Below are positions 56,801 through 59,800 of a stretch of DNA of 64,000 bases, one piece after another; the first letter of the stretch is position 1, and each line of letters opens with the position of its first letter. Both the position numbers and the translations under genes were made by a program. The DNA lies in assembly GCA_026874595.1 (NCBI GenBank), contig CM049317.1:44602401-44666400 (forward strand), given 5' to 3'. The stretch comes from Sipunculus nudus (Eukaryota; Annelida; Sipuncula; Golfingiida; Sipunculidae). The notes under the pieces are model-generated. The model was not told where the DNA came from. It searched no databases and worked only from the letters and a program-made list of their open reading frames with translations.

Positions 56801-59800
56801 TAGGTGAATTAGTCAAATCACTGCAGAGATATGAGTGATTTTAACCCCAGGCAGATGAACAGATGGACACTGTGCAAACATGGTTGCAGGTGGCGCCACC
56901 TTTTGTTGTGTATGTTATAAAGCTTTCCCAGGGCTACATTTGTGTAAAATTTTTTTCCGGATCGGTCAAACGGTTCCCGAGATATATGGGTTTATGTGTG
57001 GAAACAGACGCACAAACGGACGCTGGGCAGAGGCGAAAGGTCAGAGGTCAAGGTCACTTGGTTAGGCACCAGTTCACATGTGACCCGATAATTTGTGTAA
57101 GTTTCGGAAAAATCTGTCCAGTAGTCTCAGAGGAGTTCTCCGGAAACGAACGCGGCGGCGGCGGAACCCGGTCAAAAACATAGTATCCGCAAAACTTCGT
57201 TTTGGCGGATACAATTATGGTTTTTTTATTTGGTCTTCTGTAACACAGTATACATATATGCTCGTCAATGGGTGCTGCCATCTTATGTTCAACTCGATAA
57301 CCAAACTTGATTGCTTCTGAACAAAATAATAATTTAAACTTTGTCTTTGTGATGTCCAGTAAGATGACCATTTGAATTAGTATCTGTCCTTTATGAACAA
57401 ATGTGGAACAGAATCCCAAAGTAAATTGTTTCAATGTTCAAAAAGTGTAAAATAATCATTTTTTTTTAGTTTTTAATCCTAAGAACATTTAATATAAATG
57501 TGACATCTAGTGAATCCTTGAAGTCATTGAAACTATTTCTCTTGTCATTGCAAGTTTTTCATATATTAAGATCTGGTATGCCTTGGATCATTTACCTGGT
57601 GGTAAATATATACCTACAAAAGTTGCAATGTAATTTCAGCGTTTATGTCAACTATGTCTTGTGTGATTAAAGCCTGGCTAAAATCAAAATCCTAATGCAC
57701 TTCTCTTGTTTTAATCAGGCCTGTATTCCTGTGGTATTTTCTACACTTACCAAGTCCCTGATCCTGCCATAGTCATTATTTATTTTTGTTTATGGTTTAA
57801 CGTTGTGGACTTACCAAGTCCTCTATGTTGCCATATGTATTTCTTATTTTTTGTTCATGGTATACCATTTTGTTGACTTAACAAGTCCTCTATGTTGCCG
57901 TACATATTTTAATTTTTTTATGGTTAACCATTTTGTGGACTCACCAAGTCCTCTTTATTGCCATAGATATTTTTATTTTTTATATATGGTTTACCATTTT
58001 GTAGACTTACCAAGTCCTATATATTGCCATAGATATTTTTATTTTTTATATATCGTTTACCATTTTGTATACTTACCATGTCCTCTATGTTGCCATAGAT
58101 ATTTTTATTTTTTGTTTATGGTTTACCATTTTGTAGACTTACCAAGTCCTCTATATTGCCATAGATATATTTTTATTTTTTATATATGGTTTACCATTTA
58201 GTATACTCACCAAGTCCTCTATGTTGCTGTAGATATTTTTATTTTTTGTTTTATTGTTTACCATTTTGTAGACTTACCAAGTCCTCTATGTTGCCATAGA
58301 TATTTTTCTTCATGCCCGAGGCCCGCGTGGCCACCCATCCGCCCAGAGAGCTAAATTCCATGGAATCAGGTTCATGCCCTGTACAGTAACCTTTCTCTGC
58401 CAACTAAAAAACAAATGTCAAAGGTGCTCAGCTGATCCGCCTGTTTCTTTATTTTATGATAATCATATATTATCTTCATATATTTTTTTACTCGGATAAA
58501 GTTTACAGAGAAAATGCCAAATAAGGCTAGCTGTGACAGTTGAGACAAACGGTTTCTATTGATAATGTTAAACTGATGAATCACAGGGCAAATCACCATG
58601 TATTGTATACAATCATAAACCAACAGCAAAGCTGCTACAACAAGCAGATGACTAGACTGGGCTGCTACTCTGTACAAAAGCGTGTGTTCCATTCCAGCAA
58701 TGTAAAAAAATATAAAATACAAACTGTTTGGATTGAATACTGTGGTTGGCTTAATGTTGCATGTGTTTCAACATTGCAAATATTACAACAATGAAACCTT
58801 CTACACAGGTGAACATTTATTTATTTTATTTCAAGTATATTTTCAAGTATATGTTATCCACAATTAAGATAGCTAATATAAATAATAATATATCTTTTAA
58901 TCTAAATGTAAATCAAAGAAATAATATAAATATCATGTGCTTTACACTGTCTGTGAATTGTAAAGAGGGATTTCTACCTATTTGAGGTTGCTGTTAATCT
59001 TTGTCAAATCGACTGCATAATAAAATCTGGCAAAATCTTACATCCTCAATAGAATCATTAATTCTATACAAAACAGAACTCTTACAAAACACAAGTGAAT
59101 CTGAAAAGAAATTTAACCTCATGAATATGAAGCCAACCACAGAAGTACTTAGAAGAACCCAGCCTGTTGGTACAGCAACTATGGAAGGCTGGCCTCTCAC
59201 TGTACTCCAGGCCCTTGAGCTGGTAATCTGACTGGGACAGCGTGGCTTGCTAAAGCATGGCAGATCGGCCCTGGCTGAACTGGACTGGCTGGTAGATGGG
59301 ACACCACAGCAGATCAGCCCTGGCTGGACTTGACTATCTGGCTGCACTTTTGGACACGGAAAACTGAATGACCACTGGATGTATGTGACCCTTTTAAATA
59401 CCAATCTACCATGAAGGCTCTTCAATATTCATAAGTCTCATACTATGCCTGGGACCCCATTTTGCTCCCGAGGCTAATCTATATTCATGAGCACGCTGAA
59501 TTTTAAATAGGCTAGGAACCATGGTACCACTATGATGCCACCTGCCAGAGCACATGACATTACCATGGCATAACTCTACCCTAAACTGGGCAACCCCTAT
59601 TGAATTCCCCTATTGTCTCACAACACAATAACCCTGTCTGGCAAACCAACTCCTCACTAGAAATACCCAAGAAAACTCAAGAATAGATGCCATAAGTAAA
59701 CAAAATATGGCAAACATGCTGATGACACATCCACTTCATGGCAACAGGCAGGTCTTCATCTCAGACCAGGAGACAGAGTGAGACAAAAAAATTGTACATT

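Follow-up and report, generated by a model that had tools for sequence, protein, structure and literature searches.

A minisatellite-like array at an AGPS exon edge in Sipunculus nudus carries nine copies of a 5' splice site

In the sipunculan Sipunculus nudus, a 66-bp tandem array crosses the edge between an exon of the AGPS gene and the intron that follows it, placing nine near-identical 5' splice sites in a row. We consider it probable, at roughly 80%, that the array is a minisatellite that grew across the exon edge (a so-called mirage), that its copies are intronic passengers, and that the exon-proximal donor at position 58278 is the one used. The window analyzed is the whole stretch of 64,000 nucleotides from contig CM049317.1 (assembly GCA_026874595.1, positions 44,602,401 to 44,666,400), and positions within the gene are those of the window.

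The AGPS gene and its donor array

AGPS lies on the minus strand of the window, where 15 exons were placed by hand from 62588 to 41746. The 5' end of the gene is outside the mapped stretch, and one exon that should lie between 45728 and 44565 was missed by the hand placement. When joined, the first 12 exons form a single open frame of 388 codons, which aligns free of gaps with solved AGPS (4bca/4bby) over 386 residues (150 to 535; E = 8e-194). The exon whose 3' end is copied (58278 to 58403, minus strand) was identified as AGPS by phmmer (E = 1.5e-20 to 4bby/4bc7). It ends with ...IEDL in phase 0 and joins, in frame, the acceptor at 53783 of the next exon (53675 to 53783, minus strand), which begins with LVHVK.... 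Since the gap-free alignment belongs to the frame spliced through 58278, the sequence argues that the donor after this base is the working donor of the exon.

The array was delimited by TRF at positions 57736 to 58307 on the minus strand, with a period of 66, 8.7 copies, 83% matches, and a score of 754. Each unit comprises the last ~30 coding bases of the exon, then the donor, followed by ~36 bases from the intron. The final exonic bases of the nine copies lie at 58278, 58211, 58143, 58077, 58011, 57945, 57882, 57815, and 57751, and positions +1/+2 are GT in eight of the nine donors; the exception is copy 7 (last exon-derived base at 57882), where GT has become TT. Copy 9, which ends its exon-derived part at 57751, is the most diverged unit and has an intact donor. 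The gene, exon, unit, and donor count proposed in the initial annotation were borne out by TRF, phmmer, and the donor positions, whereas the array, which had been said to begin exactly at the 3' end of the exon, starts ~30 bases inside it. A spacing of 66 to 68 had also been claimed; the period of 66 agrees with TRF, but the actual range is 63 to 68, with successive distances of 67, 68, 66, 66, 66, 63, 67, and 64.

In the 1.43-Gb genome, the array has matches at this AGPS locus only, and no second genomic copy or haplotig was found there with which the array length could be compared. It is extremely unlikely that a shorter repeat was inflated to this copy number during assembly. The contig is chromosome-sized, and the identity between units ranges from 60 to 93%; because the units differ among themselves, they do not represent a single unit repeated by error. 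Large arrays with periods of 145 bp and 280 bp occupy much of the same intron at 54214 to 57002.

Donor strength, conservation, and the choice among sites

The predicted energy of the duplex with the 5' end of U1 is -9.1 kcal/mol for the true site, -9.1 to -11.1 kcal/mol for the intact copies, and -2.6 kcal/mol for the altered site at 57882, with three copies pairing better than the true donor. The intact copies thus match or exceed the true donor in U1 pairing. As the initial annotation had anticipated, the spliceosome is confronted by near-identical sites, of which the exon-proximal one gives the working frame. Its prediction of an in-frame TAA nine codons on also held: any distal donor leads to one common TAA, at the ninth codon after IEDL. 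The exons resulting from distal donors would span 193 to 653 nt, each with the stop, and since all distal donors reach the stop at one codon, a longer in-frame isoform is impossible. With seven of the eight extra donors intact and some of them pairing better with U1, the array offers a ready natural test of spliceosome choice, in which exon proximity, exon definition, and the surrounding sequence could be separated as cues.

The density of these sites may also be read in terms of transcript integrity, with the array acting as a cluster of U1 sites that shields the intron from premature cleavage and polyadenylation. The motif GTRAGT occurs on the transcribed strand at 13.1/kb in the array versus 0.86/kb across the whole gene. 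Each unit carries AATAAA near a strong U1 site, and these motifs, which alternate with the U1 sites, reach 13/kb versus 1.5/kb in the gene. However, the array is itself the source of the AATAAA motifs, which its A-rich unit accounts for, and we regard a shielding role as very improbable.

A further possibility is that distal donors are used in some tissues or conditions, with truncated or NMD-targeted AGPS transcripts tuning the level of the enzyme. Such regulation would be consistent with the intact donors, with their U1 pairing equal to or above that of the true site, and with the stop reached from every one of them. Nevertheless, any effect of this kind would be a generic result of duplication, and the donors are not conserved significantly beyond the rest of the unit, which makes a regulatory ladder unlikely in our estimation. 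Donor conservation was evaluated column by column, in 9-base windows, and after removal of the last units, and selective retention did not reach significance. Among copies 2 to 9, departures from the consensus amounted to 5.6% in the donor 9-mers versus 12% in the rest of the unit (Fisher p = 0.15). When copy 9 was removed, the donor window ranked 18 of 50 and the gap between donor and rest largely disappeared. The suggestion in the initial annotation of possible selection for intact donors is thus unsupported. Its alternative, a regulated fraction of truncated transcripts, is unsupported as well, the sequence speaking neither for nor against it. Copy 9 is off consensus in 18 of 58 columns, yet its donor sits in a stretch of 13 unchanged bases; the probability is about 0.026 for the named clean 9-base window, a window chosen post hoc. 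Across the same eight copies, the exon-derived and intron-derived parts of the unit depart from the consensus to 10.7% and 11.5%, respectively. Coding constraint on the copied tails was likewise rejected, as their departures (6/5/9 at the three codon positions) have no clear codon-position bias.

For the minisatellite reading, we infer a neutral origin by a tandem duplication spanning the AGPS exon/intron edge, followed by growth through replication slippage or unequal exchange, in a genome rich in minisatellites. On this view, most of the donors remain intact chiefly because the duplications copied them whole and decay has had little time to act. The array is most likely tolerated because splicing selects the donor nearest the exon, and a working product would come from that donor only. 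The site at 58278 is, in turn, most likely used because the GC-richer exon of 126 nt is defined as a unit together with the nearby U1 site (GC is 0.51 for the exon, compared with 0.285 for the array and 0.40 for the remaining intron). The downstream copies sit in A-rich DNA of 28% GC and would give the long, stop-bearing exons described above. Distal donors are probably seldom misused, and the resulting transcripts would be cleared by nonsense-mediated decay.

The clean donor of copy 9 and the three copies above the true site in U1 pairing count against the neutral account, as does the predicted RNA structure, which gives the true site no advantage. According to Eperon and colleagues, the intron-proximal member of paired strong 5' splice sites is reportedly often favoured; under such a preference, splicing would be expected at the last copy, which also counts against our explanation. 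In DOK7, the intron-proximal, stronger 5' site is preferred (PMC5585400). Competition between paired 5' sites of this sort makes the outcome at AGPS worth measuring.

The idea that RNA structure masks the copies while leaving the true donor accessible was considered and rejected, given that predicted local accessibility is low at nearly all copies and at the true donor alike. Two small hairpins are possible in each unit (UCUAUG-GCAA-CAUAGA and GGACUU-GGU-AAGUCU), the second of which contains the donor. The predicted structure of the whole array has a z of -6.2, which tandem palindromes may explain and which fails to distinguish the true donor from its copies.

Comparison with known boundary repeats

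Tandem repeats that span exon boundaries have been described in amphioxus, where they were named mirages in Adh3 and also occur in globins (BflGb6/BflGb9), TnC, and PGBD5 (PMC3087553, PMC3902484). They lie on the donor or the acceptor side, have units of 10 to 160 bp, and are reportedly without interference with splicing (PMC3087553, PMC3902484), which argues for the neutral reading of the AGPS copies and against a regulatory use. By its anatomy, the AGPS array is an exon-boundary minisatellite of this already known kind: its unit runs across the exon-intron boundary (~30 nt of coding tail, the donor, and ~36 nt of intron), and many but not all copies retain the signal (GT in eight of nine donors and, in a neighbouring acceptor array, AG in three of five extra copies). 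In both systems, minisatellite-like copies of a boundary with its splice signals diverge, and the authentic boundary appears to be the working one. The AGPS case differs in its genome and gene, in that a single array holds nine donors, most of them strong, and in the presence of three boundary arrays in one gene. For the amphioxus mirages, length variation and RT-PCR have been demonstrated, whereas the AGPS array is known here from the sequence of one assembly.

A second comparison is the minisatellite of human IFI6 (6-16/G1P3; Turri 1995), which reportedly has multiple splice donors, with downstream units used for isoforms (PMC4526556). IFI6 and AGPS share a tandem repeat at an exon/intron edge with donors in its units, and the use of repeat donors in IFI6 would favor a regulatory ladder in AGPS. 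They differ in that downstream units are really used in IFI6, giving isoforms, whereas every distal donor in AGPS leads to a stop. Mirages have also been proposed as a route to intron gain via tandem duplication of splice signals, the Rogers model (PMC3087553). The AGPS array resembles this model in its tandemly duplicated boundary material, a possible raw material for introns or exons, but no new intron or exon has formed, and an existing intron merely bears the array. Apart from amphioxus and IFI6, no boundary-spanning arrays in molluscs or elsewhere turned up in a literature search, a result that argues weakly for their absence.

Further boundary arrays in AGPS and in the genome

The array had been taken as a one-off, but AGPS holds two more boundary arrays, and they occur in other genes too. 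The first, on the minus strand at 59902 to 60122 (TRF, 59902 to 60090), consists of ~41-bp units that copy the acceptor and the first 14 coding bases of the preceding exon (59915 to 59835), with five extra copies visible and AG kept in three of them. Its furthest copy, at 60122, has a pyrimidine tract (TTCTTTTTTGTAG) better than that of the true acceptor. The same exon encodes an unusual cluster of cysteines where solved AGPS has LTAHVEAGITG, in a segment that is otherwise conserved. The other array (48018 to 48100, minus strand) has two 41-bp copies, the true donor of exon 48278 to 48089 and one tandem copy; the copied donor, GG/GTATGTGTG, is identical to the true one. Arrays with a period of 15 or more cover 19% of AGPS intron bases versus 7% of the flanks elsewhere. 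Three of the 30 mapped AGPS boundaries lie inside arrays, versus 5.3 expected by circular shift of the arrays, and therefore arrays do not favour boundaries.

Next, 49 exon loci of the genome were sampled (30 myosin-head and 19 TCP1/CCT-family loci, with bacterial contigs set aside), and two of them, outside AGPS, carry a boundary array, in both cases spanning a donor. In a myosin P-loop exon (locus L034, 523 to 1522, minus strand of the locus), a 36-bp unit is repeated ~28 times with 95% matches, and most copies have CTGACAG/GTCAGT. In an exon of a CCT-like gene (locus L050, 2395 to 2780), an 84-bp unit is present in 4.7 copies, and GT is retained in two of the four extra donors and lost in the other two. 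We count these lost donors, together with the decayed signals of the AGPS acceptor array, in favor of neutral growth, and the decayed sites in similar arrays of other genes speak against a regulatory ladder.

These arrays show that mirages also occur beyond the amphioxus genes in which they were named. Across the 49 loci, they correspond to about 2% of sampled boundaries, a rough figure because exon edges were approximate and splice sites were read from the sequence. Extrapolated, this could mean thousands of mirages, in which case the splicing machinery must routinely single out the site nearest the exon among rows of copies that match or exceed it in strength. The combination of such widespread mirages with an AGPS ladder that also gives rise to a minor, regulated share of truncated transcripts is unlikely. 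The occurrence of several donor and acceptor arrays in a small sample of one genome makes the question open to RNA-seq over many genes.

The assembly also includes bacterial-looking contigs (C61, C62, C66, C72, C73, C75, C89, and C99), each with an uninterrupted GroEL of 547 amino acids, which belong to either a symbiont or a contaminant; C89 has two GroEL copies ~2.04 Mb apart.
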